A stretch of 64,000 nucleotides of DNA from contig NZ_CP108677.1 of the NCBI RefSeq assembly GCF_035994945.1, positions 4,836,001 through 4,900,000 of the forward strand, written 5' to 3'. This document shows positions 19,061 to 38,333 of this stretch, piece after piece. The notes beneath the pieces were generated by a model. It made no database searches. It was not told where the DNA came from and saw nothing but the letters and a program-made list of their open reading frames with translations. The position numbers were made by a program, and so were the translations under genes. This DNA comes from Streptomyces sp. NBC_01216. GTDB taxonomy: Bacteria > Actinomycetota > Actinomycetes > Streptomycetales > Streptomycetaceae. Positions within the stretch are counted from its first letter, which is position 1. Every line of letters begins with the position of its first letter.

Positions 19061-19065
19061 GGTCA

Positions 19066-19491: not shown

Positions 19492-20159
19492 TCGCACCGC
19501 TGCACTTCGCCGACGCCAGGGAGGCGGCGGACCTCGCCGCCTTCCTGGGCCGGTTGCTGCGCTACGACCGGGCCGCCGCCGTACGGCTCCAGGCGGGCGG
19601 CGGCGCACTGGCCGTGTTCGGCCGGCCGCCGTCGTTCGAGGTGCTGGCCATCCGGACCGCGCGTCTGGAGGACGAGGCCGACCTGGACGTCACCGTGTCG
19701 GCGGGCGAACTCCTCGAAGGCATCGAGGAGTCGGCCGGCAAGGCCGTCGTCCCGGACGCCGTCACCGGACCTCCGTGGGCCGGTGTCCTGCCGCCACGCG
19801 GCGGCTGGCGGCCGGTCTCCGGACTGCCCGGCGGCGCGGAGCTCCGCGCCGCGGTGACCGCGGCCGTCGCGGAGTTCCGGACACGGGACGAGGAACTGCC
19901 GCCGGAGCACCGGACCCGCGCCGAGCGGGACCGCATCGGCCGCGAGATCTGGTCCCGTACGGTGGCGGGCACCGGCCTGCCGCTGCGGGGCGTGCACGCC
20001 GCGCAGTCGCTCGGCTTCCTGCCGCCCGCCCCCGAGGTGCCGGTGGCACTGCTCGCCGCGGGCCCCTGGCTGCGGCTGCGGACGCCGTACGGGTCCATCG
20101 CGATCCGTGCGGCCGTACCCGCCCTCTCGGTCACCCCGACCGCGCGCCCGGGACACTGA
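19488..20159 (+). CDS. Conserved hypothetical protein in the ettA operon
   Basis: 223 residues; the ATG at 19488 overlaps the thioesterase stop (ATGA), so translation is coupled. It opens MIAPLHFADAREAADLAAFL, has a Trp/Pro-rich middle (GPPWAGVLPPRGGWRPVSGL) and a strand-rich end (WLRLRTPYGSIAIR). No signal peptide, membrane helix, catalytic motif or named domain is visible. It is a soluble actinobacterial protein of unknown role. The ettA-thioesterase-hypothetical order seems familiar from Streptomyces, which supports it as a real gene. Confidence 0.8.
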   Translation: MIAPLHFADAREAADLAAFLGRLLRYDRAAAVRLQAGGGALAVFGRPPSFEVLAIRTARLEDEADLDVTVSAGELLEGIEESAGKAVVPDAVTGPPWAGVLPPRGGWRPVSGLPGGAELRAAVTAAVAEFRTRDEELPPEHRTRAERDRIGREIWSRTVAGTGLPLRGVHAAQSLGFLPPAPEVPVALLAAGPWLRLRTPYGSIAIRAAVPALSVTPTARPGH

Positions 20160-20186
20160 CCGGCACCTGCGATCGGACCAGAGCCC

Positions 20187-20614
20187 TCAAGGCCAGGCAC
20201 ATCTGACCAGCACCCAGGAACCCGGGACCATGCGCAGCGCCTCCGTGTACTCCGCCGGCAGCTGAAGCCGCCCCGCCCGGTCGAGCATCGCGTACTCCCG
20301 CGCCACCAGCGACTCCCGGCCCGCCGCGTCGACCCCCGTACGGCGCAACACCTCGGACGAGGTGCGGCCGTCCCGGATGGCGACCGTGCGGCGGACCTCA
20401 GAGGCGACCGCCTGGTCGTGGGTGACGATCACGATCGTCGTGCCCGGCTCCTCGTTGGCCCGCCGGAACGCGGCGAAGACCTGCTCGCCCGTCGACGAGT
20501 CCAGCTCTCCGGTCGGTTCGTCCGCGAGGAGCACGGACGGCGCGTTGGCCAGCGCGACCGCGATCGCGACCCGCTGCTGCTGGCCGCCGGTCCCCGGCCC
20601 GTCCGGCCCGGGGA
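20187..20614 (-). pseudogene. Truncated ABC transporter ATPase
   Basis: Only the back half of a MacB/LolD-type ATPase is present: GGQQQRVAIAVALANAPSVL (signature), LLADEPTGELD (Walker B), VIVTHDQAVASEV (H-loop), then a C-terminal extension with LPAEYTEALRMV. The Walker A half is missing. Homology stops abruptly near 20588, and the glbO stop codon lies at 20615-20617, so a deletion joined the broken gene to the globin end. It cannot bind ATP normally. The reading frame itself is still open through the junction to 20666. Confidence 0.8.
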
Positions 20615-21019
20615 TCAGTCGGCGGTGTTCACCATCGACGCCGCCGCGTACGTGAGGTACTTCCACAGCTGGCGCTCGTGCTCGGGCGCGAGGCCCAGTC
20701 CGTCCACGGCGTCGCGCATGTGACGCAGCCAGGCGTCGTGCGCCGCCCGGTCGACGGTGAACGGGGCGTGGCGCATTCGCAGCCTCGGGTGCCCGCGGTG
20801 GTCGCTGTAGGTGCGGGGCCCGCCCCAGTACTGGATCAGGAAGAGCACCAGGCGCTCCTCCGCGGGGCCGAGGTCCTCCTCGGGATACATCGGGCGCAGC
20901 AGGGGGTCCTCCGCGACTCCCTGGTAGAAACGGCGGACGAGGCGCCGGAAAGTCTCCTCGCCACCCACCTGCTCGTAGAAGGTCTGCTCCTGAAGCGTGC
21001 CGCGCGGAATCTCGTTCAC
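20615..21019 (-). CDS. glbO: Group II truncated haemoglobin (trHbO)
   Basis: 134 residues from GTG 21019. Truncated globin with [20 protein letters not shown] (Tyr B10 in RRFYQGV), [12 protein letters not shown], the proximal His in [11 protein letters not shown], and Trp G8 in [12 protein letters not shown], all as in HbO. Group II globins bind O2 and NO tightly and are linked to respiration and nitrosative stress. Transcribed alone; an ABC ATPase remnant lies directly downstream. The ribosome binding site (GGAAC) is weak. Confidence 0.92.
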
Positions 21020-21182
21020 CGTTCCATCGTCTCAGATGCCCGGTGCCGGGTCCGGCGGTCCTGGGATCACCGGCAGCGGGCCTCCTCCCGGCGCCGTCCG
21101 CGCGGGCCCGCCGGGTCCGGCGCTCCCGTCGCCCCGTCGCACGGCACTCGCCCCGCGGCCCGGCGCGCAGGACAGTGGAGTC

Positions 21183-22157
21183 ATGGCCGCACAGGTGGAT
21201 GTGTTCGCCTCATCGGGCGAGCGGGCGCGAGAGGCCCTCGTCCGGGAGCTGGAGTCGTCCGGAGCGCTGCGCGACCCCGCCTGGCGCGATGCGTTCGGTG
21301 CGGTGCCGCGCCATCTGTTCGTGCCGTACTACTACGTGCCGGGGGTTCGCGGCTACGAGCGCGTCTGGTCCGGTGACCCCGACCCCGGGCGGCGCGACCG
21401 CTGGCTGCGCGGGGCCTACCAGGACAGACCGCTGGCCACCCGGGTACGGGACGGGGAGCTGGTCTCCTCCGCCAGCCAGCCCTCCCTGATGTCCCGGATG
21501 CTGGAGGCGCTGGAGACTCGGGACGGGCACGACGTCCTGGAGATCGGCGCGGGCACCGGCTACAACGCGGCCCTCCTCGCCCACCGGCTGGGGGACGAGC
21601 GCGTGACCACCCTCGATCTCGACGACGAGATCACCGAGTCCGCCCGGGCCCATCTCGCCGCCGCCGGTCACCGGCCCACGGTGCTCACCCGCGACGGAGC
21701 CCGGGGCTGTGCCGAGCGCGCTCCCTTCGATCGGATCGTCGCCACCTGCGCGCTGCCGTCGGTGCCCTGCGGCTGGCTCGGCCAGTGCCGCCCCGGCGCT
21801 CTCGTCCTGGCACCGCTGTCCACCGGGCTGATCCTGCTCCGGGTCCGGGACGCCGAGCACGCGGAGGGGCGGTTCCTCGCCACCTCGGCGTACTTCGTCG
21901 GGCTGCGGGGCGGCGGCGCCCGCACGGTCAGGTCACGGGCGACCGGGGTTCCCCGGCAGATCTTCGATGACGGCGGTTTCCGCTTCCTGCGCACGCTGGC
22001 CGCGGAGAGCCTGGACACGCGTGAAGCACTCTCGCTCTGGCAGCGCGAGCGGCGGCCGGAGCGGGAGCGCTTCGGGGTGACCGTCCGGGAGGGCCGGCAG
22101 TGGGCCTGGCTGGACGACCCGGAGGGGCCCTACGCCTGGCCGCTGCCGGACCTCTGA
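21183..22157 (+). CDS. PCMT-like SAM-dependent methyltransferase
   Basis: 324 residues from ATG 21183 behind GTGGAG. The N-terminal two thirds is a protein-L-isoaspartate methyltransferase fold: DAFGAVPRHLFVP, SSASQPSLMSRML, SAM motif I DVLEIGAGTGYNAALLA, motif II VTTLDLDDEI, and the post-I region FDRIVATCALPSVP. The C-terminal 100 residues are specific to actinobacteria, with a Trp-rich end (WAWLDDPEGPYAWPLPD). Related proteins include methyltransferases of lanthipeptide clusters and tRNA-unrelated orphan enzymes; with no precursor or synthetase nearby, repair or an unknown substrate is more likely. Confidence 0.8.
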   Translation: MAAQVDVFASSGERAREALVRELESSGALRDPAWRDAFGAVPRHLFVPYYYVPGVRGYERVWSGDPDPGRRDRWLRGAYQDRPLATRVRDGELVSSASQPSLMSRMLEALETRDGHDVLEIGAGTGYNAALLAHRLGDERVTTLDLDDEITESARAHLAAAGHRPTVLTRDGARGCAERAPFDRIVATCALPSVPCGWLGQCRPGALVLAPLSTGLILLRVRDAEHAEGRFLATSAYFVGLRGGGARTVRSRATGVPRQIFDDGGFRFLRTLAAESLDTREALSLWQRERRPERERFGVTVREGRQWAWLDDPEGPYAWPLPDL

Positions 22158-22190: not shown

Positions 22191-22243
22191 GCGTGCGTGC
22201 CAGGGCGTGACCGACCGGCCAGAGGCCGCCGGACAGGCTCTCA
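22191..22243 (-). repeat. Dispersed 3'-end repeat, copy 2
   Basis: Read on the minus strand it starts with the FHA gene stop codon: TGAGAGCCTGTCCGGCGG, then CCTCTGGCCGGTCGGTCA and CGCCCTGGCACGC. Over about 53 bases it is nearly identical to copy 4 (47746-47799). It contains short dyads that can fold and probably terminates the minus-strand operon. Confidence 0.8.
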
Positions 22244-23395
22244 GCCGCGGCGGATCGTGATCGTGGTCCAGGCACCGACGTGTACCCGGTCCCCGTCCTG
22301 GAGCGGGACGGGGACGTAGGGCTGGATCGGTTCCTCGGCGCCGTTGAGCGTGGTGCCGTTGGTCGAGTTCTGGTCCACCACCGCCCACGAGCCGTCCGGC
22401 TGTCGCACCAGCACGGCGTGCTGGTGCGAGACGCCCGGGTCCTCCGGGGGTATCGACAGGTCGATGTCGGGGGACTCGCCGGTGGAGTGCCGACGGCGCC
22501 CGATACTGACCTGGTGGCCCTGCAGCGTCAGCTGCTTCTCCGGGGAGTACGCGGGCAGGTTCAGGCCCGAAGCCTCCGGACCGCTGCGCTGCATCATCGC
22601 CATGAAGTAGTCGCGGTCCGGACCGATGTACGCCGACCAGACCGCGGGCGGGCGGGGCTGCTGGTACTGCTGCTGGGGCGCGTGCTGCTGAGGCATCGGG
22701 GCGGGCGCGGCCGGGGCCTGGGACCGGGAGGGCGGCGGCAGCATCCAGTCGTCGCCACCGCCACCGGAGGTCTGGTGCTGTGGCGGCGCGGACTGCTGCC
22801 GCGGGGGCGGGGCCGACGGGTTCTGGAAGAACGACGGCGGCGGACCCTGCCGGAACTCCTGCGGCGGCTGTCCGCCCTGCGGCGTGTGCTGCTGCTCCGG
22901 CGGGCGCTGGGGCGGCGCCTGCTGGTGCGTGGGGTCGGCCGAGAGAGGCTCCGCCGGACGGTTCACCTGGGAGGGACGGGAACCGTGGTACTCGTACGGG
23001 TCCGGCGGACGTGGCGGCGACTGGAAACCGGGCGGCAGGTTCAGACCGGGCGGCGGGCTCTGCTGCTGCGAGGGGGGAGCGACCGGCGTGTAGGAGGTCG
23101 CCGTGTTCGTGAGGAAGTTCCAGCGGCACTCCTCGCAGAACGGCGCCATGTGCTCGCGCGGGGTGCGGCACTGCGGGCAGAGTTCGGCCTGGGCGGTCGC
23201 GTTCGGGTCGTCTCCGGGGCCGAATCCGGAGGGGGCCTGCGGGGGCGCCCCGGGACCGCCCGGACCGGGGTAGCCGTACGCGGGGGGAGGCGGCGGTACG
23301 GCACCCGCCGGCGCACCCGCCCCGGCCATGCGGTGGCCGCAGACCTCGCACCAGTCGTCGGAGACCGACTGGTGTCCGTTCGGGCAGGTCGGCAT
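22241..23395 (-). CDS. Zinc-ribbon and FHA-domain protein, PknG locus
   Basis: 384 residues from ATG 23395 behind GAGAGGGGGAAG. Two Cys pairs at the N-terminus (CPNGH, WCEVCGH) and another set near 75-95 (LCPQCR, FCEECRW) form zinc ribbons; residues 110-270 are Pro/Gln-rich and disordered; the last 95 residues are an FHA domain with QVSIGRRRH, PGVSHQHAVLV and STNGTTLNG, which bind phosphothreonine. Last gene of the GlnX-GlnH-PknG run. In mycobacteria PknG phosphorylates the FHA protein GarA to control glutamate metabolism; this FHA protein is a natural candidate as reader or substrate, although it lacks GarA's size and I see no clear TTxT site. Confidence 0.88.
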   Translation of the reverse strand: MPTCPNGHQSVSDDWCEVCGHRMAGAGAPAGAVPPPPPAYGYPGPGGPGAPPQAPSGFGPGDDPNATAQAELCPQCRTPREHMAPFCEECRWNFLTNTATSYTPVAPPSQQQSPPPGLNLPPGFQSPPRPPDPYEYHGSRPSQVNRPAEPLSADPTHQQAPPQRPPEQQHTPQGGQPPQEFRQGPPPSFFQNPSAPPPRQQSAPPQHQTSGGGGDDWMLPPPSRSQAPAAPAPMPQQHAPQQQYQQPRPPAVWSAYIGPDRDYFMAMMQRSGPEASGLNLPAYSPEKQLTLQGHQVSIGRRRHSTGESPDIDLSIPPEDPGVSHQHAVLVRQPDGSWAVVDQNSTNGTTLNGAEEPIQPYVPVPLQDGDRVHVGAWTTITIRRG

Positions 23396-23436
23396 GTCGG
23401 TGCTTCCCCCTCTCCTCGTCCGGCCCCCTGGCCGGG

Positions 23437-24762
23437 CTACTTCTTCACGCGAACCGTCTTGGTGGACCGGGTCTCGAGAGTCATCTCGTCCGCCTCCGCG
23501 ACCTTCGCCTTCAACCGCACAGTACCGGTCGCCGCGTCGACGACGTCCACCACCTTCGAAAGGAGTTTCGCGGTGTCCGTGTTGCCCGAGGCCGCTGCCA
23601 GCTGGACCGCGCGGCCCAGTCTGGCGGTCGCCGCGTGGTGGTCGCCGGACTTGCGGGCGTCCAGACCCTGCCGGATGGCCTGGGCCAGTTCGGCCTGGCC
23701 GGTGTAGTGCGCGACCTGCGGACTGATGGACGTGGACATGGCCATGTCGTCCGTCCACACCGCCCGCACCAGGCCCTGCGCGAGCGACCGAGGGGCGCCG
23801 CCCGACGGGTCCGGAACGATCAGCGAGACCCGGGCGGCGAGCATCTCCTGCCCGATCGCCGCCTGCGGAACACGGACGCGGACGTGGTAGTCGCGGGACT
23901 CGTCGCCCCACGAGCCGGTCGGGTAGTCGCCCGCCCGGGGCCCCGCCTCGGTGCGCCGGCCCGTCAGCTCCTCCACCGCAGGCGCCACCTGCTTCACGAA
24001 CTGGATCTCCACGCCGACCGGGGTCCACAGGCGCAGCGCGACGTCCGCGACCTCCTTTCCCATGGCGTTCCCCGTCATCGAGGTGAAGTCCTCGGCCAGG
24101 GCGCCGGGGTCGGCGACGATGTCGGCGGTGCCCAGCAGCGCGGAGGCGATGCCGGTCACCTCCTCGACCCTCCAGTCCGTGCCCACACCGCGCGCGTCGC
24201 AGGTGAAACGGCCGGCGCAGGCGTCGAGCGCGGCCCGCAGATCCTCCGGTGCCTCGTGTTCGTTGCGGCCGTCGGTCAGCAGGATGCCGTGCCGGATCGG
24301 CGCGTCCGCGGAGGCCAGCAGCCGGTCCGCGAGCCGCAGCCAGGTGCCGATCGCCGTCCCGCCGCCGGCGTTCAGCCGCCGCAGCGCTTCCTTGGCCTGG
24401 GCCCGGGTCCGCGCGTCGGCGACGGCCAGGCGGCCGTTGCCCGGGTAGACCTCGGTGGCCACGTGGGTACCGGCGACCACGGAGAAGGAGGTGCCGTCGC
24501 GCAGGGAGTCGACTGCGGCGGCGGTCGCGTCCCGGGCTCCCCGCATCTTCGCCGGCGGGTAGTCCATCGAGCCGGAACAGTCGACCATGATCACCACGGC
24601 GAGAGCGCTCCCGCCGTCCCCCGTCGCGCCACCGCTCGTCCCGCCCCCGGTCGCGGTGACCGTGACGATCGCGCTGACCTCGCGCCCGCCCTCGGGCAGG
24701 AACTCGTTCTGGTACACCTCCACCGAGAACGGGGGGACGTTCGACTTGGAGAAGTTCGCCAT
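23437..24762 (-). CDS. VWA-domain protein, PknG locus (TerY-like partner)
   Basis: 441 residues from ATG 24762. The von Willebrand A domain starts near residue 55 with an intact metal site DCSGSM (Asp61, Ser63, Ser65) and carries ILLTDGRNEHEAPEDLRAAL and the DWRVEEVTGIASALLGTAD segment. A C-terminal helical part (QAELAQAIRQGLDARKSGDH) follows. No signal peptide, so it is cytoplasmic. In TerY-P systems a VWA protein acts with a PP2C phosphatase and a kinase; the same three families are adjacent here. 120 bp separate it from the PP2C gene and 41 bp from the FHA gene. Confidence 0.9.
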   Translation of the reverse strand: MANFSKSNVPPFSVEVYQNEFLPEGGREVSAIVTVTATGGGTSGGATGDGGSALAVVIMVDCSGSMDYPPAKMRGARDATAAAVDSLRDGTSFSVVAGTHVATEVYPGNGRLAVADARTRAQAKEALRRLNAGGGTAIGTWLRLADRLLASADAPIRHGILLTDGRNEHEAPEDLRAALDACAGRFTCDARGVGTDWRVEEVTGIASALLGTADIVADPGALAEDFTSMTGNAMGKEVADVALRLWTPVGVEIQFVKQVAPAVEELTGRRTEAGPRAGDYPTGSWGDESRDYHVRVRVPQAAIGQEMLAARVSLIVPDPSGGAPRSLAQGLVRAVWTDDMAMSTSISPQVAHYTGQAELAQAIRQGLDARKSGDHHAATARLGRAVQLAAASGNTDTAKLLSKVVDVVDAATGTVRLKAKVAEADEMTLETRSTKTVRVKK

Positions 24763-24881
24763 CGGGTTCGGGCTCCTCGGCAACAGCGTGGCGGCGGCGC
24801 GCCGCGGCGACGGGTCACGGAACGGCGGGGGACAAGGAAGGGGTCGGACTACGGCGTACGACGGCGGGGCGAGGGTGGCTT

Positions 24882-26261
24882 TCAGGCCGATCCTGCCCCT
24901 TCGGGCGCGAGGGTGAACGGCAGCAGCGCCACTGTTACGTTGTCGTGGCCCCCACCGTCCAGGGCGTGCCCCACCAGCACCTGCGCGCCGTGCAGCAGCC
25001 GTCCTCCGGCGTCCGCCGGCACCACGCGGGCCATGTCCTCCGCGGCCTCCGCGTAGTTCCACAGCCCGTCGGTGCACACCACGACCACCCCGGACCGGTC
25101 CGGTTTGAACGCGGCGGTGTGCGGCTCCAGTTCGTAGGCGTCGGCGCCCAGCCAGCCGGTGATGGCGTGGGCGCGCTCGTCCGCGTACGCCTGTGCCTCG
25201 TTCATCAGGCCCGCGGAGACCATCTGGGCCGCCCACGAGTCGTCCTGGGTGAGCCGGGCCGGAGGGGCGGTGCGGTCGTCGGGAACCCAGTAGGCACGGC
25301 TGTCGCCGATCCAGCCGACGATCAGCAGCCCGTCGGCGACGACCGCACCGACGATCGTGCAGGCCGGGGCGTTCTGATGGCGGTGCGGATCGTGCTCCAT
25401 GGCTCCCTGGGCCGGCTCCCCGGCCAGGGCGTCGACCGCCGCCGCCGCCGCGACGATCGCCTCGTGCATGGCCTGCTGCGGGTGGATGCCCCGGGACAGG
25501 GCGGCCAGCAGCGAACGGCCCGCCGCGTCCGCGGCGGCGGCGGACGCCTCGTCGGGACGGGTCGCCGAGGAGACCCCGTCACAGACGATCGCGAGCGAGG
25601 CCGGGGAGCCGTCGGCCAGCTCGGTGGAGGCGACGGCGAACGCGTCCTCGTTGCGGTGGTGGCGCAGTCCCCGGTCGCTGACGGCGGCCACCGTGGTCAG
25701 CTCCTGCTCCATGTGGTCCCGCTCGCGGGGCTGTGCGTGCCCGCAGTTCTCGCAGTAGCCGTCGGCGTCCACCCGTCCGGCCCGGCAGGCGACGCAGACC
25801 TTCGTCCCGGCAGGCGACGCCGGATCGGCGGCGCGCGGGTCGGCGGCGCGCGGGTCGGCGGCGCGCGGGCCGGGGGCGCGCGGGTCGGGGGCGGCGAGCG
25901 TGAAGTCCCCGTCCTCCGAGGCAACCGGCGCCGGGGGAGCGGACGCCTGGGCCGGGACGCCCGCGTGCGCCGCGCCGGCACCGCTGCCCGCAGCCGTCGC
26001 CGTCAGATCGCGGCCCCCGGAGTCCGTGCCCGGAAGGTCGCCCGGGTGCTGGGTCGCGGTGGACAGGGCCCCCGGATCGCGGGGCGGCGCCTCCGGCCAG
26101 TCGACGGGAGTGCCGATCGCGAGCGTCGGACGGTCCGGCTCCGCCGGGACGGCCGACAGGTCGTGACCGCACGCCCCGCAGAACCGGTCACCCGAATCCA
26201 GCGGTTCCGCGCAGCCGGGGCAGGCGGAGTGATCGTGCTGCGGCATCTGGGACATACTCAC
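24882..26261 (-). CDS. PP2C-family Ser/Thr phosphatase with zinc ribbons, PknG locus
   Basis: 459 residues from GTG 26261, which overlaps the pknG stop as GTGA; GTG 26267 and ATG 26255 are alternatives. N-terminal zinc ribbon (CPGCAEPLDSGDRFCGACGH), a low-complexity linker containing a short RAADP repeat, a second ribbon (CVACRAGRVDADGYCENCGH), then the PP2C domain from about residue 190 with all metal-binding Asp motifs: RNEDAFA, VCDGVSS, GDSRAYW, CTDGLWNY and GGHDNVTVALL. It should remove phosphate from Ser/Thr, and by position most likely opposes PknG. No membrane segment. Confidence 0.92.
   Translation of the reverse strand: MSMSQMPQHDHSACPGCAEPLDSGDRFCGACGHDLSAVPAEPDRPTLAIGTPVDWPEAPPRDPGALSTATQHPGDLPGTDSGGRDLTATAAGSGAGAAHAGVPAQASAPPAPVASEDGDFTLAAPDPRAPGPRAADPRAADPRAADPASPAGTKVCVACRAGRVDADGYCENCGHAQPRERDHMEQELTTVAAVSDRGLRHHRNEDAFAVASTELADGSPASLAIVCDGVSSATRPDEASAAAADAAGRSLLAALSRGIHPQQAMHEAIVAAAAAVDALAGEPAQGAMEHDPHRHQNAPACTIVGAVVADGLLIVGWIGDSRAYWVPDDRTAPPARLTQDDSWAAQMVSAGLMNEAQAYADERAHAITGWLGADAYELEPHTAAFKPDRSGVVVVCTDGLWNYAEAAEDMARVVPADAGGRLLHGAQVLVGHALDGGGHDNVTVALLPFTLAPEGAGSA
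25823..25895. repeat. 15-bp tandem repeat inside the PP2C linker
   Basis: About five copies of GCGCGCGGGTCGGCG with growing divergence, encoding the RAADP repeat between the two zinc ribbons. In-frame length change here would alter only linker length. Confidence 0.7.
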
Positions 26262-28744
26262 ACCCACGTCCGGGGGCGGAGACGGTTGGCCCGCTCCACC
26301 AGTTCGATCCTCTCCTCGCCCCGCTGGGCGAGCCGGGCGAGCACCCGGTACGAGCGTTCGAGGCCGAAGCGCAGTCCGCGCTCGTCCAGTTCACTGCCGA
26401 GCAGCCGGGCATCGTCCGGCCCCGCACCGGGACTCCCGGAGAGTACCCAGTCGAGCGCCGTGCCGAGGACCTCCGCCGACAAACGCTCCCGGCGGACCGC
26501 GTCCAGGCCGAAGCCCCGGAGCGCGGCGACCTGGGCCGCGGCAGCCGTGAGGTCCCGGCCGAGCGGGTCGTTCGCCGGGCGCCGCCGCAGCCTGGCCCGC
26601 ACCGCCGCGACCCGCGCCGCGGTGTAGTGGATGGACGCCTCCGGCACGGACTCCAGGGTCAGGACGGCCCCGGTGCGGTCGCCGGCGGCCAGCCGCACCC
26701 GGGCGAGCCCGAACGCGGCGCTGACGTACCCCGGATCGGTCGCCCACACCAGGTGGTAGTACTCGGCGGCGTTGTCCTGCTGGGCCAGCACCTCGGCGCA
26801 GATGCCCAGCGCCAGCTTGGGCGCGGGCTCTCCGGGGAAGGCGTCGTAGACCGCGTCGAAGGAGACCGCGGCGTTCTCGTGGTCGCCGTTCACCAGCGAC
26901 GCCACACCGCGGTACCAGACCACCCGCCAGTCGTCCGGATGCCGTTCCTCCAGGGCGGCCAGCGCGCGGCCGGCCGAGCCGAGGTCGCCCATCTCCAGAC
27001 GTGCCCGCAGCTCGCGCAGCCCCAGTTCGAGGGAGGGCGCGGGCGCCGACCGCAGGGCGCTGATCAGTTCGGCGGGCGCCGAGGCCATCAGGCCGGCGAG
27101 GAAGACGGCGTTGGGGTCGCCCGGATCGACGTGCGGCACGGGCAGAGCCAGCGCGGCGGCCCGCACGTCCACCGGGGTGAGGAACGGGCCGCCCGGACCC
27201 GCCGCGGCCGGGTGGCGCCCACGGCCGCGGCGCGTCTCCCGCGCGCCCAGCACCGAGACGTCCTCCGTCAGCTCCGCGAACAACTCCGTGTCCGTCACAC
27301 GCGGTTCCGGTCCGAACAGCGTCGAGAGCGCCGGGCGAGGCCGCCCCGACTGCAGGGCGACGACCTCCCGCAGCACGCCCGTCAGCTGCTCCGCCATCTC
27401 CTGCGCCGAGGCGAAACGGCGCAACGGATCGGGGTCCGTGGCCCGCACCAGGAAGCGGTAGAAGGACTCGTACGTCCGGAAGACCTCGATGTGGTCCGGG
27501 TCCGGCAGGGAGTCCGCGAAGACGTTCGTGTAGCCCTGGAAGTCGAAGGCCAGCACGGCGAGCGTGCGTGCCACCGTGTACAGGTCGCTGGCCACCGACG
27601 GGCCGAGCTCGGCCACCTCCGGCGCCTGGTAGCCGACGGTGCCGTAGATGGCCGACTCGTCGTCGTCCATCCGCCGCACGGCGCCCATGTCGATCAGCTT
27701 GAGCTGGTCCTCGGTCTGGATCGCGTTGTCGACCTTGAAGTCGCAGTACAGCAGGTTCCGGCTGTGCAGATGACCGAGCGCTTCCAGGGCCTCGATCCCG
27801 AACGCGCACGCCTGTTCCACCGGCAGCGGATCACGCCGGCCGTCGGGCGTCCGCCGGTCGTTGGCTATCTCCTTGAGCGACTTGCCACCGACGTACTCCA
27901 TGACGATGTAGCCGTCCAGGGAACCCGTGCGCTGGTCGAGGTGCTCGACGAAGTTGTAGATGCGGACGATGTTGGAGTGCTCGATCTCCGCGAGGAAGCG
28001 GCGCTCGGAGATCGCCGCCGCCATCGCGTCCTGGTCGCCGGTGTCCAGCAGGCCCTTGAGGACGACCCAGCGGTCGGAGACCGCCCGGTCGACGGCGAGG
28101 TAGACCCAGCCGAGACCGCCGTGCGCGAGACATCCCGCGACCTCGTACTGACCGTGCACGACGTCCCCGCCGCGCAGCTTCGGCACGAAGGAGTACGGAT
28201 GCCCGCACGTGGTGCAGAACCCCTCGGTCCGCCCCGGGCGGTCGCCGCGCGCGCGGCCCACCGGGCCGCCGCAGTCGGAACGCGAGCAGAATCGCTTCCG
28301 CTCGGGAACCTCGGGGTTCTCCATCACGGCGGCCCGCGGATCGGGGCGCGGCACCTCCGGGATCGTCACCAGCCCGGCGCCCAGCCGGTTGCGCCCGGAC
28401 TGGCCGGTCGAGGAGCCCGAGCTGCGTACCGAGACCGAGCGCCCGGTACCGCCGCCCGACAGGGAACGCGAGAGCCGGCCGGAGACCGACCGGCGCGACG
28501 TCGACGAGCGCGAGGACCGGGACGAGCCGCGCGAGGAGGACCGGGACGACCCGGACCCCGAAGAACCCCCGCCGGCCGAGGCCGGACCGGTCGGCGTCGA
28601 CCTGAGCAAGCCGCCGGGCGCGACCACCGGGGCCAGACCGCAGGTGTCGCAGTACAGCTCGCCGCCGCCCATGTCCTCGTACGAACCCTCGCACGACGGA
28701 CGCTGACAGGTACCCACCACCGACGCTTCCGCTCCTCCGCTCAC
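26258..28744 (-). CDS. pknG: PknG-type Ser/Thr protein kinase with zinc ribbons and TPRs
   Basis: 828 residues from GTG 28744, overlapping the upstream stop as GTGA and preceded by GGGGAAG. N-terminal ribbon (Cys13, 18, 32, 35); Ser/Arg-rich linker about 58-110; second ribbon (Cys153, 158, 177, 180) equivalent to the rubredoxin-like part of PknG; kinase domain about 200-440 with glycine loop AHGGLGWVY (207-215), Lys230 in VVLKGLL, Glu in FLAEIEH, catalytic loop YCDFKVDN (Asp335) replacing HRD, and DMG (352-354) replacing DFG, all PknG features. The C-terminal half has TPRs. PknG lacks a membrane anchor; in mycobacteria it receives the amino-acid signal from GlnH-GlnX encoded beside it, as here. 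Confidence 0.93.
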   Translation of the reverse strand: MSGGAEASVVGTCQRPSCEGSYEDMGGGELYCDTCGLAPVVAPGGLLRSTPTGPASAGGGSSGSGSSRSSSRGSSRSSRSSTSRRSVSGRLSRSLSGGGTGRSVSVRSSGSSTGQSGRNRLGAGLVTIPEVPRPDPRAAVMENPEVPERKRFCSRSDCGGPVGRARGDRPGRTEGFCTTCGHPYSFVPKLRGGDVVHGQYEVAGCLAHGGLGWVYLAVDRAVSDRWVVLKGLLDTGDQDAMAAAISERRFLAEIEHSNIVRIYNFVEHLDQRTGSLDGYIVMEYVGGKSLKEIANDRRTPDGRRDPLPVEQACAFGIEALEALGHLHSRNLLYCDFKVDNAIQTEDQLKLIDMGAVRRMDDDESAIYGTVGYQAPEVAELGPSVASDLYTVARTLAVLAFDFQGYTNVFADSLPDPDHIEVFRTYESFYRFLVRATDPDPLRRFASAQEMAEQLTGVLREVVALQSGRPRPALSTLFGPEPRVTDTELFAELTEDVSVLGARETRRGRGRHPAAAGPGGPFLTPVDVRAAALALPVPHVDPGDPNAVFLAGLMASAPAELISALRSAPAPSLELGLRELRARLEMGDLGSAGRALAALEERHPDDWRVVWYRGVASLVNGDHENAAVSFDAVYDAFPGEPAPKLALGICAEVLAQQDNAAEYYHLVWATDPGYVSAAFGLARVRLAAGDRTGAVLTLESVPEASIHYTAARVAAVRARLRRRPANDPLGRDLTAAAAQVAALRGFGLDAVRRERLSAEVLGTALDWVLSGSPGAGPDDARLLGSELDERGLRFGLERSYRVLARLAQRGEERIELVERANRLRPRTWV

Positions 28745-30039
28745 CACTGACTTCCCCTGCCCTCTCCAGGCCCGGACAGAACCTCCGCCGCTGCCCGCTG
28801 ATAGCGCAGCACCGCCTGCTCGGCGACCCGCAGGTCGCACGGCGCGCTCCACAGCATCCGGCGCGCCGCGTCGTACCGCTCGATCAGCAGCGGGTCCTCC
28901 GCCGCGCCGAGCCGCGCCACCTTCGCCTTGTACGCGTCCAGCCGGCCGCGCAGCTCGGCGCGGACCGCGAGCGGCGCCGTGACCGCCGTCAAGGACGCCC
29001 GTGCCCGCTGCAGTTCGTCCTCGGCCTCCTGCTCCAGCGACTCCAGGAGCGGCGAGAGCCGGTGCCACCGGGCGTGCCTGCGGTACTCGGCGGCCGTCAC
29101 GAGCCGCTCCTGGAGGGCCGTCGGCGGACCGCTGACGGCGGGCACCTCGGAGGCCGCGATCTTGGCGAGGACCTCGCCGCGGGCCGCCCTCGCCTCGGCG
29201 AGAGTCCGGTCCGCGCGCGAGAGCACGTCGCGCAGCCGCAGCAGCCGCTCCTCGGAGTCCTGCCGGACCGCCAGCACCGCCTCGATCTCCCGCCGGATGT
29301 CCTCCAGGGCACGGGCCGCGCGGTCGTAACGGGTGGTGTCGGGACGCCCGCCACCGGGTGCCGAACTGCCCGCGGCGGGCTGCCAGAAGGCCAGCGGATC
29401 GGTGACGACCTCGGAGCGCAGCGCACCCAGCTCGGCGGTGATCTCCTCCAGCTCGTCGCCGGCCGGATGCTCCCCCGGCCGCACCCCGACGGAGTGCGCG
29501 AGGGAACGGGTCCGGCCGAGCTCCGCGGCGAGCAGGTCTATCCGGGCGGGCAGCGCCGACCAGACGGCGTCCGCGGTCACGACGACGTCGAGCGCCGCGG
29601 CGTACAGCTCGTTCATCCTGCCCACCAGCCGCTCCAGCGTGAAGCGTTCGGCGAGCCGGGGCGGCCCGCCGGCCGGCGCGGCGCACCGCTGGGCCCCACC
29701 GGACACCAGGACGCTCTCGCCACGCAGCCGCTCGGTCAGCTCGACCAGGTCCTCACGGCTGGACCAGCGGCGGCGCGCCCGCAGCTCACGCGCCGAGAAG
29801 AGCGCCGCGGTATAGGCGTCGAAACAGGTCCACAGCAGGGTGATCGATGCCTCGGTCGCCTGCCAGCGCTCCCGGGTGGTCCCCGTCAGCTCGGCGCCCT
29901 CGAGCAGCCTGCGGCCCGCGTGGTCCTGGAGGGCGAGCAGCGAATCCTCGACCGCCTTGTGCTCCGCGCCGAGGCGCGCCAGCGCACGGTCCACCTCGTC
30001 CCGGTCCATTGCCGGACCGGGGGGTCCCGTGACGCCCAT
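28741..30039 (-). CDS. Coiled-coil protein between GlnH and PknG
   Basis: 432 residues from ATG 30039 behind GAGAGGTG. Almost entirely helical with heptad-like stretches (for example ALARLGAEHKAVEDSLLAL and AARALEDIRREIEAVLAVRQ); no signal peptide, membrane segment or named domain. It starts 3 bp after glnH ends and its stop overlaps the pknG start, so the three are co-translated. I infer a scaffold or adaptor joining the membrane sensor to the kinase. I know of no named homologue; mycobacterial loci as I remember them lack it. Confidence 0.8.
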   Translation of the reverse strand: MGVTGPPGPAMDRDEVDRALARLGAEHKAVEDSLLALQDHAGRRLLEGAELTGTTRERWQATEASITLLWTCFDAYTAALFSARELRARRRWSSREDLVELTERLRGESVLVSGGAQRCAAPAGGPPRLAERFTLERLVGRMNELYAAALDVVVTADAVWSALPARIDLLAAELGRTRSLAHSVGVRPGEHPAGDELEEITAELGALRSEVVTDPLAFWQPAAGSSAPGGGRPDTTRYDRAARALEDIRREIEAVLAVRQDSEERLLRLRDVLSRADRTLAEARAARGEVLAKIAASEVPAVSGPPTALQERLVTAAEYRRHARWHRLSPLLESLEQEAEDELQRARASLTAVTAPLAVRAELRGRLDAYKAKVARLGAAEDPLLIERYDAARRMLWSAPCDLRVAEQAVLRYQRAAAEVLSGPGEGRGSQW

Positions 30040-30042
30040 CGA

Positions 30043-31110
30043 TCACCTCTCGTTCTGCTTGTACATGGGTGCGGGCGGCCCGGATATCCCGGGCAGGTCC
30101 GCCTTCAGCCACTTCTCGTACGCCGCCTGCCAGGGGCCCTGCCGGTACCGGACCAGAACCTGGTTGACCCGGCGCACCAGGTCGTCGTTGCCGAGCCGGG
30201 CCGCCACGCCGTAGAACTCGGTGGTGAACGGCTCGCCCTTGAGCTCGATCGCCGGGTCCTGCGCGGCCTGTCCGGCCGCCAGCGCGTTGTCCGTGACGAC
30301 CGCGTCGACCTCGCCGAGCTGGAGGCGGACCAGACAGTCCAGCTGGTTGGGCACGGTGAGGAGGTCCCGGTCTTCCTTGGTGCCGTCGCCCTCGTCCTTG
30401 AAGACGGCCCCGAAGGAGTTCCGCTCCAGCGCCTCGTACGCCGTCGAGCCCTCCGCCGTACAGACCCGTTTGCCCTTCAGGGACGGGCCGTAGCCCAGGA
30501 TCGTCGCATCCTGCTTCGGCGCCAGCACCTGCTGCCCGGCCTGGAAGTAGGCCGTGGAGAAGGCGACCTGCTCAAGCCGCTTGCAGTTGATCGTCATCGT
30601 GCGCACCACGAGGTCGACCTTGCCGCTCTCCAGGGCCGCGATCCGCTGGTTGGTCGGAATCGCGCGGAAGACGATGCTGTCCTCGCTGCCGAGAATGTCC
30701 TTCGCGATCGCCCTGGCGAGGTCGATGTCGAACCCTTCGAGCGTGCGCTTGCCGGGGTTCCGGTACCCCCACCGGTAGCTGGACTGGTCGACGCCCACCA
30801 CGAGCTTGCCGCGCTTCTTGATCGCGGCGATCGAGGGGCCGTCGGCCGAGGACGGCGTCAGCGATGCCTCCGGGTTCTCGCAGGTGTCCGCCCGCACCGG
30901 TACACCCGTCGCGACACCGAGGCCGCCCGGCGCCGGCGCGGCCGATGCGCCGTGACCGCGATGGGCCAGCGGCAGCAGGGTCAGCGCCGCGGTCAGACCG
31001 CAGGCCACGGCCATCGCCGCGACCCCTCCCCAGCCACGCGGCCGGGCCAGCGGCCGCCGGGCGGGCCCGACTGGGTCACCCTTCCCCGCGTCGTCGACGC
31101 CGTAGCGCAT
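30043..31110 (-). CDS. glnH: Glutamate/amino-acid binding protein GlnH of the PknG pathway
   Basis: 355 residues from ATG 31110 behind GAGAGGGGGCG. An N-terminal membrane anchor (WGGVAAMAVACGLTAALTLL) is followed by a periplasmic-binding fold of SBP family 3: KLVVGVDQSSYRWGYRNPGK, LEGFDIDLARAIAKDILG, IPTNQRIAALESGKVDLVV and VDAVVTDNALAA. There is no lipobox, so it is tethered by the helix. In mycobacteria GlnH binds Asp/Glu and signals through GlnX to PknG rather than feeding a transporter; the absence of any ABC permease here and the neighbouring GlnX and PknG support the same role. Confidence 0.9.
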   Translation of the reverse strand: MRYGVDDAGKGDPVGPARRPLARPRGWGGVAAMAVACGLTAALTLLPLAHRGHGASAAPAPGGLGVATGVPVRADTCENPEASLTPSSADGPSIAAIKKRGKLVVGVDQSSYRWGYRNPGKRTLEGFDIDLARAIAKDILGSEDSIVFRAIPTNQRIAALESGKVDLVVRTMTINCKRLEQVAFSTAYFQAGQQVLAPKQDATILGYGPSLKGKRVCTAEGSTAYEALERNSFGAVFKDEGDGTKEDRDLLTVPNQLDCLVRLQLGEVDAVVTDNALAAGQAAQDPAIELKGEPFTTEFYGVAARLGNDDLVRRVNQVLVRYRQGPWQAAYEKWLKADLPGISGPPAPMYKQNER

Positions 31111-31121
31111 CCCGCCCCCTC

Positions 31122-32474
31122 TCACCGGTACTCCGACAGCCTGCGGTTGATCCCCACGACGATGCCCGCCGCACCGAGCACCGCGAGCCCGGCCGCCCCC
31201 AGCGGGAGCGCGGTCAGCGCGTCCCGGCCACCTTCGGCGGCGCGGCCGAACTCGGCCTGCTCGTGGTCCAGGGCCCGCTTCAACGCCGCGTCGATCTGGT
31301 CGAAGGACTGCCCGGTGGACTCCTTCGGGCCGATGATCCGGCTCAGCGCGCCCTCGTAGTCTCCCGCGTCGTCCATGGCGCGCGCTGCCTGATGACGCTG
31401 CCGCCACTCACCCGCGCGGGAAGCGGCCTCGGACAGCGGTCCGCGGCCCTCCTCGTCGTCGGCCAGCTCCCCGGCCCTGTCGAGCGCGCCGGTCAGCGCA
31501 GCCATGCCGGCGGTGTAGTCCGTCTCGTACTTGTCGTTCAGGCCGTCGTCGGTGAGGACCGAACCCCGTGCGACCAGCGTGAGGTTCTCGTTGGCGCGGG
31601 CCTTCAGCGAGCTGATCCGGGCCGTGTTGAGTACCTGGAGAGAGCTCTGCCCGTGCTCCTGGGCCTCGGTCAGCCCCGACCGCGCGAGGGTGTGCGCGGT
31701 GGCGAGCCAGAGCAGCACGACGACCGAGGCGGCCGTGGCCGCGAGCAGTCCCTGGTTGAACACCCGGTTCGTCAGGCGCTGATCGCGCCGCTGCGCCCAC
31801 ACCAGGGCGGCCACTGCGACGAGCCCCAGCACCAGGGAGGCGTAGGGCAGGTCGCGGGCGTCCGCGTCGTCCCGGTGGAGCCGGGCCGTCTCCGCGTCGT
31901 ACAGCCGCTGCGCGGCGGGCAGCAGCTGGGTGGTCATCTGCTGGTTCGCGTACCGGAGGTACGCCCCTCCGAGCGGAAGGCCCTGCCGGTTGGCGGCCCG
32001 CGCGCGCTCGACGAGTCCGGTGTAGCGGGGGAGCCCCTCGTTGAGCGTGGCGATCTCGCGGCCCGACTCCGAGGAACCGTCGGTGCTCGCGGCGGCCTCG
32101 ACCAGCAGCCGTGAGGCCGTGGATATGTCCCGCGCGTACCGCTCACGGATGTCGGCCGGCTCCTGCGGGCCGGACAGGAAGGCGCCGGCGGCGGCGGTGT
32201 CGGCGTCCGCGAGCGAGCGGTAGATGTCGGCCGCGTCGGCGCTCAGCGGCTGGCTGCGGCTCACCACGTCGTCGGCGGCGTCGGCGCGGTCCGCGACCTC
32301 GAAGCCGGTGACGGTCCCGAACGCGACCACCACCAGGGCCAGTACGGCCCCCAGGATCCGCAGCCGCCCCGGCTCGGTGGTGGCGGCCCGGCGCAGGCGG
32401 CTCCGCGCCTCGGCCCAGGCACCCGGTCCGGGGGCCGGCACCGAGGCGATGGGCACGTTCGGCGGTGGTGTCAC
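31122..32474 (-). CDS. glnX: Four-helix membrane sensor GlnX
   Basis: 450 residues from GTG 32474 behind GGGGAGGTCA. Four membrane helices frame two extracytoplasmic helical sensor domains, as in tandem four-helix-bundle receptors: helix 1 LGAVLALVVVAFGTVTG, first domain about 65-215, helices 2 and 3 (SLVLGLVAVAALVWA and ATAASVVVLLWLATAH), second domain about 275-415, helix 4 PLGAAGLAVLGAAGIVVG. It has no kinase or methyl-accepting domain. The mycobacterial homologue links GlnH to PknG. First gene of the minus-strand operon; its promoter must lie in 32475-32670. Confidence 0.88.
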   Translation of the reverse strand: MTPPPNVPIASVPAPGPGAWAEARSRLRRAATTEPGRLRILGAVLALVVVAFGTVTGFEVADRADAADDVVSRSQPLSADAADIYRSLADADTAAAGAFLSGPQEPADIRERYARDISTASRLLVEAAASTDGSSESGREIATLNEGLPRYTGLVERARAANRQGLPLGGAYLRYANQQMTTQLLPAAQRLYDAETARLHRDDADARDLPYASLVLGLVAVAALVWAQRRDQRLTNRVFNQGLLAATAASVVVLLWLATAHTLARSGLTEAQEHGQSSLQVLNTARISSLKARANENLTLVARGSVLTDDGLNDKYETDYTAGMAALTGALDRAGELADDEEGRGPLSEAASRAGEWRQRHQAARAMDDAGDYEGALSRIIGPKESTGQSFDQIDAALKRALDHEQAEFGRAAEGGRDALTALPLGAAGLAVLGAAGIVVGINRRLSEYR

Positions 32475-32739: not shown

Positions 32740-32791
32740 CGGCGGCGCCCGACGGGACCCGCCCGGTCGAAGGCCGCCCGACTGGCTCTCA
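32740..32791 (-). repeat. Dispersed 3'-end repeat, copy 3 (degenerate)
   Basis: Read on the minus strand it begins with the kinase stop codon, TGAGAGCCAGTCGGGCGG, followed by CCTTCGACCGGGCGGG. It matches the start of the other copies with a few changes and then diverges. Confidence 0.7.
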
Positions 32792-33772
32792 GGCGTAGTG
32801 CGCCCGCAGTCGGGCCGCCGCCCCGGGGCCGTCCCCGCACGTGTCGAGCGCCAGCAGCCCGGCGCCCAGGACCGGTGGCGAGGTCACGACCCTGATGACG
32901 GCCTTCGGCGCCTTCGCCACCAGCAGGTCGGCGATCCGGGTGTCGAGTTCGGGGTGCCGGGCGGCCAGCACGCCGCCGCCCAGGATCACCGGTGCCTCCT
33001 CGTCGAGCAGCCCGAGCCGGCCGAGCGCGACCGAGGCCAGCGCGACGACCTCGTCGGCCTGCCGGTGCACCAGTGCGCGTGCGACCGCGTCGCCCGCCGC
33101 ACTCGTACGGAACAGCACGGGTGTCAGCTCGTGACGCCGCGTGGCCGGGACACGGTTCCGGTGCAGCGCCTCGATCAGCGCCTCCATGGTGTCCAGACCG
33201 AAGTGCGCGGGCAGCGCGCGGGCGAGTTCGGTCGGTGCGCCGCGCCCGTCCTCCGCGCGGGCCGCGCACCACAGGGCCTCCTCCGCGAGCCCGCCCCCGC
33301 CGCCCCAGTCACCGGAGATCTTCCCGATCGCGGGGAAGCGGGCCGTCCGCCCGTCGGGCAGCATGCCCACACAGTTGATGCCGGCCCCGCAGACCACGGC
33401 GACGCCCCGGGGCTCGTCGAGCCCCGCCCGCAGCAGGGCGAAGGTGTCGTTGCGCACGGTCACCGAGCGACTCCACCGGCGGGCTTCCAGGGCGGCCGTC
33501 AACTCCCTTTCCTCGACGGCGAGATCGACGTTCGCCAGACAGGCGGAGACGTGCGAGAACGCGGGCGGCGTGCCGTCGTCGGCGCCGGCCGCGGCCCAGG
33601 CGCGGTCCACGATGTCCGCCAGGCCCTCCAGTGCCGCGCCGACGCCGACGACCGGAGGCTGGAAACCACCGCCGCGCGCCGTACCGAGGACGCTCCCGTC
33701 GCGTCCGAGGACCGCGACATCGGTCTTGCTGTTGCCGGCGTCGATCGCCAGCAGGCTTCCGTTCAGGCCCAC
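32789..33772 (-). CDS. BadF/NagK-type sugar kinase (probable N-acetylglucosamine kinase)
   Basis: 327 residues from GTG 33772, overlapping the end of the GH4 gene by 10 bp. ASKHA fold: phosphate loop LLAIDAGNSKTDVAVLGRDG, VVCGAGINCVGMLPDGR, FPAIGKISGDWGGGGGLAEE, and VILGGGVLAARHPELD. The combination fits N-acetylglucosamine kinases of the BadF/BadG group. Last gene of the ROK-controlled sugar operon; it would phosphorylate the monosaccharide set free by the glycosidase. The precise sugar is inferred. Confidence 0.82.
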   Translation of the reverse strand: MGLNGSLLAIDAGNSKTDVAVLGRDGSVLGTARGGGFQPPVVGVGAALEGLADIVDRAWAAAGADDGTPPAFSHVSACLANVDLAVEERELTAALEARRWSRSVTVRNDTFALLRAGLDEPRGVAVVCGAGINCVGMLPDGRTARFPAIGKISGDWGGGGGLAEEALWCAARAEDGRGAPTELARALPAHFGLDTMEALIEALHRNRVPATRRHELTPVLFRTSAAGDAVARALVHRQADEVVALASVALGRLGLLDEEAPVILGGGVLAARHPELDTRIADLLVAKAPKAVIRVVTSPPVLGAGLLALDTCGDGPGAAARLRAHYA

Positions 33773-35037
33773 GCGAGGTGCTCCCGGTTGTGGGCGATCA
33801 GCCGGTCGGTGAGCCCGTCGGCGAGCGTGTACTGGCCGACCAGCGGGTGCGCGAGCAGTGCCTTGAACACCCGGTCGCGGCCCCCGCGCAGCGCGGCCTC
33901 CAGTGCCAGGTCCTCGTAGGCGGTGACGTGCGAGATCAGCCCCGCGTACAGCGGGTCGACCGCGGCCACCGGCAGCGGGGCGGCCCCCCGCGCGCCGATC
34001 GCGGCCTGCACCTCGACGACGGCGTCGTCCGGCAGGAAGGGCAGGGTGCCGTTGTTGTACGTGTTGACCACCTGGTACGGCGAGCCCGCGCCCGGCCGGC
34101 CGCCCAGCAGACCCGCGGCCAGGTCAACGGCGGCCTCCGAGTAGAACGCGCCGCCCCGCTTGCCGAGCAGCGCCGGCTTCTCGTCGAGTGTCGGGTCCCC
34201 GTACATCGCCAGGAGTTCCCGCTCCATCGCGGCGACCTCGGCGGCCCGCGAGGGCTTGCTGCCGAGCTCCCGGACGACCTCGTCGTGGGCGTAGAAGTAG
34301 CGCAGGTAGTAGGAGGGGACCACACCGAGGCGGTCCATCGGCGCGGACGGCAGGCGCAGGTCGTCGGCGAGCGCGGCACCGTGCTCGGCGAGCAGTCGCG
34401 GAAGCACGTTCTCACCCTGGGGACCGCCCAGCCGGACGGCGATCTCCCAGGTCAGATGGTTGAGGCCGACATGGTCGAGGTGGACGTCGGACGGGTCCAC
34501 GCCCAGGAACCGGGCGAACTTCCGCTGGAAGCCGATGGCGACGTTGCAGAGGCCGACGGCCTTGTGACCCGCCTGCAGGAGGGCGCGCGTGACGATGCCG
34601 ACGGGATTGGTGAAGTCGATGATCCAGGCGTCCGGGTTGCCGCGCCGGACCCGTTCGGCGATGTCCAGGACCACCGGGACGGTCCGCAGCGCCTTGGCGA
34701 GCCCGCCGGCGCCGGTCGTCTCCTGCCCGACGCAGCCGCATTCCAGCGGCCAGGTCTCGTCCTGGTCGCGGGCCGCCTGCCCGCCGACCCGCAGCTGGAG
34801 CAGGACGGCGTCGGCGCCCTCGACGCCGCTGTCGAGATCACCGGTGGTGACGATCCTCCCGTCGTGGCCCTGTCTGGCGAAGATCCGCCGGGCCAGCCCG
34901 CCGACCAGTTCGAGACGGTCGGCGGCCGGGTCCACGAGGACGAGTTCGGTGATCGGCAGGGTGTCGCGCATGCGCGCGAAACCGTCGATCAGTTCGGGGG
35001 TGTAGGTGGAGCCGCCGCCCACGACAGCGAGTTTCAT
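33763..35037 (-). CDS. GH4 family glycosidase (6-phospho-beta-glucosidase type)
   Basis: 424 residues from ATG 35037. NAD-dependent GH4 enzyme: dinucleotide loop AVVGGGSTYTPELIDGF, IIDFTNPVGIVT, the metal-binding Cys in GLCNVAIGF and His in GLNHLTWE, and NTYNNGTLPFLPDDAVVEVQ. These resemble 6-phospho-beta-glucosidases, which use NAD+ and Mn2+ to cleave by redox elimination. Because the sugar enters through an ABC system that does not phosphorylate, either the kinase downstream acts first or the enzyme takes unphosphorylated sugar. Confidence 0.88.
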   Translation of the reverse strand: MKLAVVGGGSTYTPELIDGFARMRDTLPITELVLVDPAADRLELVGGLARRIFARQGHDGRIVTTGDLDSGVEGADAVLLQLRVGGQAARDQDETWPLECGCVGQETTGAGGLAKALRTVPVVLDIAERVRRGNPDAWIIDFTNPVGIVTRALLQAGHKAVGLCNVAIGFQRKFARFLGVDPSDVHLDHVGLNHLTWEIAVRLGGPQGENVLPRLLAEHGAALADDLRLPSAPMDRLGVVPSYYLRYFYAHDEVVRELGSKPSRAAEVAAMERELLAMYGDPTLDEKPALLGKRGGAFYSEAAVDLAAGLLGGRPGAGSPYQVVNTYNNGTLPFLPDDAVVEVQAAIGARGAAPLPVAAVDPLYAGLISHVTAYEDLALEAALRGGRDRVFKALLAHPLVGQYTLADGLTDRLIAHNREHLAWA

Positions 35038-35041
35038 TCGA

Positions 35042-35941: not shown

Positions 35942-35946
35942 GACGA

Positions 35947-36888: not shown

Positions 36889-36894
36889 CGGCGG

Positions 36895-38232: not shown

Positions 38233-38333
38233 GGCGGAGTCTCCCTGGTGCGGTTGGGGTGCAGGGGAAGGGGATGACGCGTGCTGGTCCGGGCCGTGCG
38301 GGATGCCGGCCGGGGGAGAGGGCGGGGTCCGGG

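Follow-up and report, generated by a model that had tools for sequence, protein, structure and literature searches.

The GlnH-GlnX-PknG-GarA/OdhI pathway has been described in relatives of Streptomyces (available parts of PMC6069109, PMC9769921 and PMC8546545), and the glnX-glnH-pknG operon has been reported to be conserved among actinobacteria, Streptomyces being named in the abstract (PMC6069109). The mycobacterial and corynebacterial operon encodes a sensor and a kinase, and neither a phosphatase nor a reader of phosphorylated proteins. In Streptomyces sp. NBC_01216 the three genes belong to a minus-strand run of seven co-directional, tightly packed genes, transcribed in the order glnX, glnH, CC, pknG, PP2C, VWA, FHA, at positions 22241-32474 of the 64,000-nucleotide stretch that was analysed (the window; NZ_CP108677.1, 4,836,001 to 4,900,000). 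The question that this locus raises is why a phosphatase, a VWA protein, an FHA protein and an uncharacterised protein should be encoded together with an amino-acid sensor and its kinase.

A comparison across actinobacteria confirms that the seven genes are one conserved unit, with PP2C, VWA, FHA, GlnX and GlnH genes all beside pknG in 103 of the 160 loci compared. We read the unit as a self-contained core that writes, erases and reads phosphorylation and is driven by a membrane sensor, with the mycobacterial operon as a reduced version, and give this reading a probability of about two in three. The glnX-glnH-pknG core is already published and the broad GlnX family is named in NCBIfam; within the openly licensed literature available to us (its text, and not graphics like the STRING panel in PMC6069109) we found no recognisable description of the full seven-gene cassette.

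Conservation of the genes around pknG

Two sets of loci were compared. The coded set consists of 80 PknG-centred stretches of 10-20 kb, picked for spread from the listed matches and with taxa given as family and genus codes. The named set is the best 80 of at least 594 loci confirmed by the PknG profile, each of 5-19 kb. The open frames of both sets were searched with profiles of the seven proteins, after a first BLAST pass. From their placement in PknG trees, the family codes f3, f95 and f68 probably stand for Mycobacteriaceae, Pseudonocardiaceae and kin of Thermomonosporaceae.

The full sets divide into 55/80 named and 48/80 coded loci, and CC was detected in 94 of the 103 loci carrying the other six genes. 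Named full sets come from Streptomycetaceae (18), Thermomonosporaceae (7), Micromonosporaceae (6), Cellulomonadaceae (5), Intrasporangiaceae (4), Promicromonosporaceae (3), Kribbellaceae (2), Nocardioidaceae (2) and one locus without family rank, with a single locus each from Nocardiopsidaceae, Kineosporiaceae, Microbacteriaceae, Acidimicrobiaceae (a metagenome-assembled genome), Mycobacteriaceae, Nocardiaceae and Pseudonocardiaceae. A first-pass annotation of the window had joined the sensory line to the kinase, PP2C, VWA and FHA genes as a single unit, an idea to be dropped if the neighbours were not conserved with pknG; in this survey of actinobacterial gene neighbourhoods they do stay with it.

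That the neighbours are kept by chance, or by general conservation of gene order, is barely credible. All seven genes are present in 19/19 primary Streptomyces loci, as close kin would show, but full sets occur in 15 named families with the sensor and core blocks in differing arrangements, which refutes such an account at family level. Among 107 loci with PP2C, VWA and FHA, a count from which the secondary Streptomyces loci L085-L089 were excluded, GlnX lies upstream of the core in 80, downstream in 24 and divergently in 1 (L145, family code f38), and is unseen in 2 on short contigs (L141, L194). The downstream arrangement is that of the Thermomonosporaceae loci, Nocardiopsis endophytica and most of f68. 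Since the two blocks swap places and yet stay neighbours, the linkage probably reflects function rather than inertia.

The families themselves are also scarce outside the cassette. The whole 7.7 Mb genome holds 1 VWA_3_C, 4 PP2C_2 and 10 FHA matches, and because these families are rare genome-wide and one of each nevertheless follows pknG within 4 kb, the clustering is beyond chance. A search for VWA_3_C (PF18571) that was independent of PknG gave 38 matches, spread over 33 of 158 genomes. Set by eye against the listed places of PknG_TPR, 25 of these matches lie within 4 kb of one, 6 are not near and 7 are in genomes without a listed PknG place.

Smaller and irregular loci were also seen. VWA without PP2C and FHA accompanies PknG in L112 and L115 (f68) and in L204 and L222 (Actinomadura, Spirillospora), and PknG plus VWA may be the minimal recurring set. 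The f3 genome G542 has four PknG copies (L097-L100), one with the full seven-gene set. In the Streptomyces locus L074 (G314) PknG is split over two open frames, as if frameshifted or mis-assembled.

The seven proteins

All seven genes that the first-pass annotation had listed on the minus strand are present within its outer limits, and six of the products are assigned by Pfam or NCBIfam; all features below lie on that strand. The overlaps it had described as several are fewer: CC and pknG overlap by 4 nt, pknG and PP2C do so by 4 nt only if a GTG start at 26261 is used for PP2C and are otherwise 2 bp apart, and the other pairs are spaced (glnX/glnH 11, glnH/CC 3, PP2C/VWA 119 and VWA/FHA 41 bp). 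The sensor gene glnX (31122..32474, GTG start) encodes a GlnX-family membrane signal-transduction protein of 450 residues that scores 474.6 bits against NF058618 (cut-off 250) and 183.1 bits against the narrower equivalog NF041460, under its cut-off of 780. The product of glnH (30043..31110) is a family 3 amino-acid-binding protein of 355 residues (SBP_bac_3, 93.3 bits), whose best match among solved structures in the PDB is Mycobacterium tuberculosis GlnH, 6h2t, at 169.8 bits; inspection of its N-terminus by eye, with no predictor, found no clear lipobox.

Residues of M. tuberculosis GlnH that contact aspartate include R147, T162, S164, R169, W232 and D250, with Trp232 contacting the aspartate side chain (PMC6069109, in the available text). 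Alignment to 6h2t shows R147, T162, R169 and D250 kept here, while S164 is replaced by Thr, K161 by Arg and W232 by Gln. Position 232 varies by lineage. It is Gln in 19/20 genus-coded Streptomyces loci (the window included) and in 19/20 named Streptomycetaceae, Trp in 13/13 f3, 2/2 f95 and 16/16 named Pseudonocardiaceae loci having GlnH, and Tyr in 16/16 f68 loci and in 10 named ones, which are Thermomonosporaceae apart from one Nocardiopsis. A further 17 named loci, from Cellulomonadaceae, Promicromonosporaceae, Intrasporangiaceae, Nocardioidaceae, Microbacteriaceae and Kineosporiaceae, have His. The Streptomycetaceae exception, L263, recorded as Streptomyces sp. SID13031, has Asp at this position and a PknG that groups with Kribbella, and its label may be wrong. 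The ligand is likely to be an amino acid, and coupling to glutamate or aspartate is one possibility.

CC (28741..30039) is an uncharacterised protein of 432 residues with 2567 relatives at E <= 0.001, and is the only one of the seven with no Pfam or NCBIfam family above cut-off. Wherever the source name of a listed non-self relative shows an organism, that organism is a Streptomyces, in agreement with the placement of the window in the 47-row PknG tree described below. The term "coiled-coil" is a label taken from the first-pass annotation that matches some database source names and is not a prediction. From residue 340 it has a conserved C-terminal domain (28741..29022), found in 59/80 named and 52/80 coded loci, which on the simplest reading would let an adaptor or an output protein dock on the kinase.

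The kinase gene pknG (26258..28744) encodes a rubredoxin-kinase-TPR Ser/Thr protein kinase of 828 residues (PknG_TPR 312.1, PknG_rubred 112.4 and Pkinase 86.9 bits). Its best PDB match is mycobacterial PknG, 2pzi, at 581 bits across the rubredoxin (PF16919; residues 116-190, 28175..28399), kinase and TPR (PF16918; residues 524-826, 26267..27175) domains. An extra N-terminal zinc ribbon of the form CX4C-X13-CX2C (28637..28708), read from the sequence, precedes a Ser-rich linker. PknG also gave matches in PADLOC, which look like general kinase similarity and were set aside.

PP2C (24882..26255) is a phosphatase of 457 residues with two N-terminal zinc ribbons (PP2C_2, 48 bits). The VWA protein (23437..24762; 441 residues) has an intact MIDAS, DxSGSM..GGTA..TDG, and matches VWA_3 at 40.1 and VWA_3_C at 82.9 bits; its VWA_3_C domain (PF18571; 23464..23604) is the sole match in the genome. 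The FHA protein (22241..23395; 384 residues) consists of two zinc ribbons, a Pro/Gln-rich linker and a C-terminal FHA domain (61.5 bits). In family alignments of 49-74 sequences, conservation covers the lysine and the catalytic motifs of the kinase, the aspartate motifs of PP2C, the MIDAS of VWA and the phosphothreonine-binding motif of FHA. We take these to be the functional sites, and PknG, PP2C, VWA and FHA have probably kept their predicted functions. Ribbon cysteines are likewise kept, at the 80 or 95% level, in the FHA protein, in PP2C and in the rubredoxin domain of PknG, and the extra PknG ribbon is not general among PknGs.

On one side the cassette is flanked by genes for an ABC ATPase, a bacterial globin and an isoaspartate methyltransferase-like protein (17117-22157), and on the other by those for a BadF-type ATPase, a family-4 glycosidase and a solute-binding protein (32789-38892).

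Three-gene and seven-gene forms

The 16 loci of f3 comprise 12 of the three-gene form, 3 with pknG alone and 1 full set, and 12 of 18 named Pseudonocardiaceae loci are of the three-gene form, or 13 when one on a short contig is counted. These PknGs do not form one group. In an unrooted tree of 47 rows and 612 columns, covering the kinase and TPR domains only, one three-gene group shares a starred clade with three full cassettes, those of Mycobacterium sp. OAS707, Nocardia colli and G542. A second (support 89, not starred) falls with Kibdelosporangium banguiense (full), an Amycolatopsis metagenome-assembled genome (all but GlnH) and Lentzea (PP2C only). A single clade of three-gene PknGs is rejected (p-AU 0.0072), the starred branches force two changes, and a 154-row PknG FastTree agrees on two three-gene groups. 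The Lentzea row L203 was entered as "full" in the 47-row tree though it has PP2C only, a label whose correction could add changes and not remove them.

Repeated loss makes a simpler history than gaining the same four genes more than once, which favours a seven-gene ancestor, and the three-gene operon is best read as a reduced form of the older seven-gene set. Mycobacteriaceae and most of the sampled Pseudonocardiaceae would, on the PknG trees and with polarity set by parsimony, have lost CC, PP2C, VWA and FHA at the locus while keeping glnX-glnH-pknG. As VWA_3_C has no match among the listed results for the 10 f3 genomes in the class sample of 158, VWA appears to have been lost there rather than relocated. 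The first-pass annotation had described a sensory line merged with a kinase triad; the two are indeed found together, but the direction looks reversed. In Lentzea (L203, L215) glnX-glnH-pknG is followed by a lone PP2C, with neither VWA, FHA nor the extra PknG ribbon, and these loci are perhaps intermediate toward the three-gene form.

A proposed signalling unit and its alternatives

In the reading that we prefer, GlnH would bind an extracellular amino acid and GlnX would relay the signal over the membrane, a step that is based here on homology and linkage and that others have proposed and supported in mycobacteria and Corynebacterium. PknG, docked through its TPR domain, would phosphorylate proteins, and the output most likely includes a remotely encoded GarA with a kept ETTS phospho-site. 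The active-site motifs and linkage of the co-encoded PP2C suggest a dedicated eraser of PknG marks. The FHA protein may be a second reader, binding phosphothreonines on PknG (including its linker), VWA or CC, and could act as a scaffold or compete with GarA for the kinase. VWA, through its MIDAS and the extra PknG ribbon, and CC, through its C-terminal domain, would assemble the complex, as their co-occurrence suggests. Compared with the GlnH-GlnX-PknG-GarA/OdhI pathway, the sensor pair, the architecture of the kinase and a genomic GarA with ETTS are the same, whereas CC, PP2C, VWA, FHA, the extra PknG ribbon and Gln at GlnH position 232 are different.

It had been suggested that the FHA protein itself plays the role of GarA, and it does have an FHA domain with the phosphothreonine-binding motif residues and is encoded beside PknG. 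We now regard this as highly improbable, since the protein scores only 20.5-22.5 bits against the OdhI model NF041660 (cut-off 200) and its sequence has no ETTS motif, whereas a true GarA at G000:C1:6300863-6301198 (6.30 Mb, 1.43 Mb from the cassette) has ETTS and reaches 178.5 bits, itself also under the cut-off, and a GarA was matched in 30/30 and 26/26 genomes checked. Very little also speaks for the cassette being a TerY-P triad that acts as a switch in metal or tellurite stress. The same three enzyme families are encoded together, with zinc ribbons and a MIDAS VWA, which is as far as the proposed kinship of the kinase, PP2C and VWA genes to that triad goes. TerY carries the TerY_C Pfam domain. 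The cassette VWA protein is of the VWA_3/VWA_3_C kind and has no TerY_C match in Pfam, where it matches VWA models, VWA_3_C and, below cut-off, SnoaL_4 only. Its kinase is of the PknG type, with ribbons at the N-terminus and TPRs at the C-terminus rather than the C-terminal ribbon or OB fold of TerY-P (as defined in the available text of PMC11090510, drawing on Anantharaman et al. 2012). The cassette also has an amino-acid sensor, and the nearest of 12 TerD matches in the genome is ~360 kb away.

The pknA/pknB locus carries PstP and FHA proteins and likewise brings kinase, PP2C and FHA genes together, but it is a separate site; the cassette has its own PP2C and FHA genes, and their products carry zinc ribbons. 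At 3.59 Mb this genome has a cluster of one PP2C_2 and two FHA matches. Another comparison is with the GAP1-N2 conflict systems of actinobacteria, in whose kinase-zinc ribbon/PP2C/vWA theme an active kinase with a zinc ribbon adjoins PP2C and a stand-alone vWA (PMC7159879, available text); in the cassette the sensor is GlnH/GlnX, the kinase has TPRs, and no GTPase was noted at the locus, though no search was aimed at one. Such kinase, PP2C and vWA sets in conflict-type neighbourhoods would fit an account in which the CC-PknG-PP2C-VWA-FHA core has a job of its own, in stress, conflict response or development, with GlnX-GlnH as mere input and neither GarA nor central metabolism as output. This would also fit the Streptomyces paralogue loci L086-L089, which have a PknG-like kinase, VWA and the CC domain and in which no GlnH was detected, and the many genomes that have GarA without PknG. 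We nevertheless think it unlikely, as GlnX accompanies 105 of the 107 cores, in one or another of the three arrangements, and the PknG homologues tested act on GarA/OdhI (available text of PMC8546545 and PMC6069109).

Zinc ribbons shared by PknG (the extra ribbon and the rubredoxin domain), PP2C and the FHA protein had been put forward as a common assembly device. The part of this proposal that finds support is the association of the extra PknG ribbon with VWA, which is suggestive: the ribbon is present in 103/105 loci with VWA vs 2/35 without (140 loci), and in L132, which has PP2C and no VWA, it is half lost, in keeping with the link. This count excludes loci on short or end-cut contigs (L126, L135, L141, L190, L194, L196, L199, L221, L239, L244, L251, L253) and those with no kinase glycine motif (L085-L088, L099, L185, L187, L195).

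Several points weigh against the proposed unit. After correction for ancestry the ribbon/VWA link falls short of significance, with typically 5/6 independent pairs agreeing and none opposing (p 0.0625). Two other motif definitions gave p 0.031, with the ribbons in L121, L250 and L258 missed, and p 0.125, with the degenerate f69 ribbons dropped. The 119-bp gap ahead of VWA leaves room for a separate transcript, and because Trp232 of M. tuberculosis GlnH is Gln here and varies by lineage the ligand may not be Asp or Glu. PknG_TPR has no match in 251/394 genomes of the class and in 2/40 same-genus genomes (own included), one more genome of the genus having only a weak match. As GarA is far wider than PknG (a match in 150/158 genomes of the class sample vs 143/394 for PknG_TPR), it appears independent of the kinase. 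The trees are unrooted, so that loss over gain is a matter of parsimony, and transfer is possible. Lastly, a zinc ribbon in GarA does not track the cassette. It seemed a marker in the first 30 genomes, which a wider sample and a recheck with a longer upstream stretch overturned: the ribbon is present in at least 21/40 fetched GarA loci, 39 of them from genomes without a PknG_TPR match and one (G334) with a weak match, and was not found in the cassette bearers Cellulomonas, Terrabacter, Oerskovia, Promicromonospora, Paractinoplanes, Phytohabitans, Mycobacterium sp. OAS707 and Kibdelosporangium banguiense. In the GarA of the present genome (L003, L146) such an N-terminal ribbon stands ahead of ETTS, which sets it apart from the mycobacterial GarA loci examined, and the FHA region has a short local oddity compared with other Streptomyces.

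A widespread operon in which the sensor is accompanied by a phosphatase, a reader and two proteins with a likely role in assembly makes the control of PknG directly testable in Streptomyces. If the mycobacterial operon is the reduced case, conclusions on PknG regulation drawn from it may be incomplete for other actinobacteria; in Corynebacterium the phosphatase Ppp reverses OdhI phosphorylation (PMC9769921, available text). GarA-type control of the tricarboxylic acid cycle bears on antibiotic precursor supply in Saccharopolyspora (PMC12321487, available text), and may likewise do so in Streptomyces.

A wider view, possible but doubtful, is that the PknG pathway known from mycobacteria and Corynebacterium is what remains of an ancestral actinobacterial machine for phosphosignalling, equipped with a phosphatase, reader, MIDAS protein and adaptor and with zinc ribbons and a CC adaptor domain to keep its parts together, and that a second, GlnH-less branch shares the adaptor domain and has a trypsin-like protease as output, giving one kinase family with nutrient and proteolytic branches. 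The CC C-terminal domain is found in the four secondary Streptomyces loci L086-L089 (E 1.4e-6 to 3.4e-9), each of which encodes a VWA protein, and lies near the C-terminus of trypsin-like proteins, recognised by the Pfam trypsin domain in L087 and L089 and by eye in L086. A weak 48-bit GlnX match was seen in L089. These clusters look like a conflict-type or proteolytic branch. The genes at L087:6494-11891 are those for a trypsin-like protein ending in the CC domain, for a PknG-like kinase with rubredoxin, kinase and TPR domains, and for a VWA protein that has a C-terminal zinc ribbon in place of VWA_3_C; a DUF5682 gene is located upstream.

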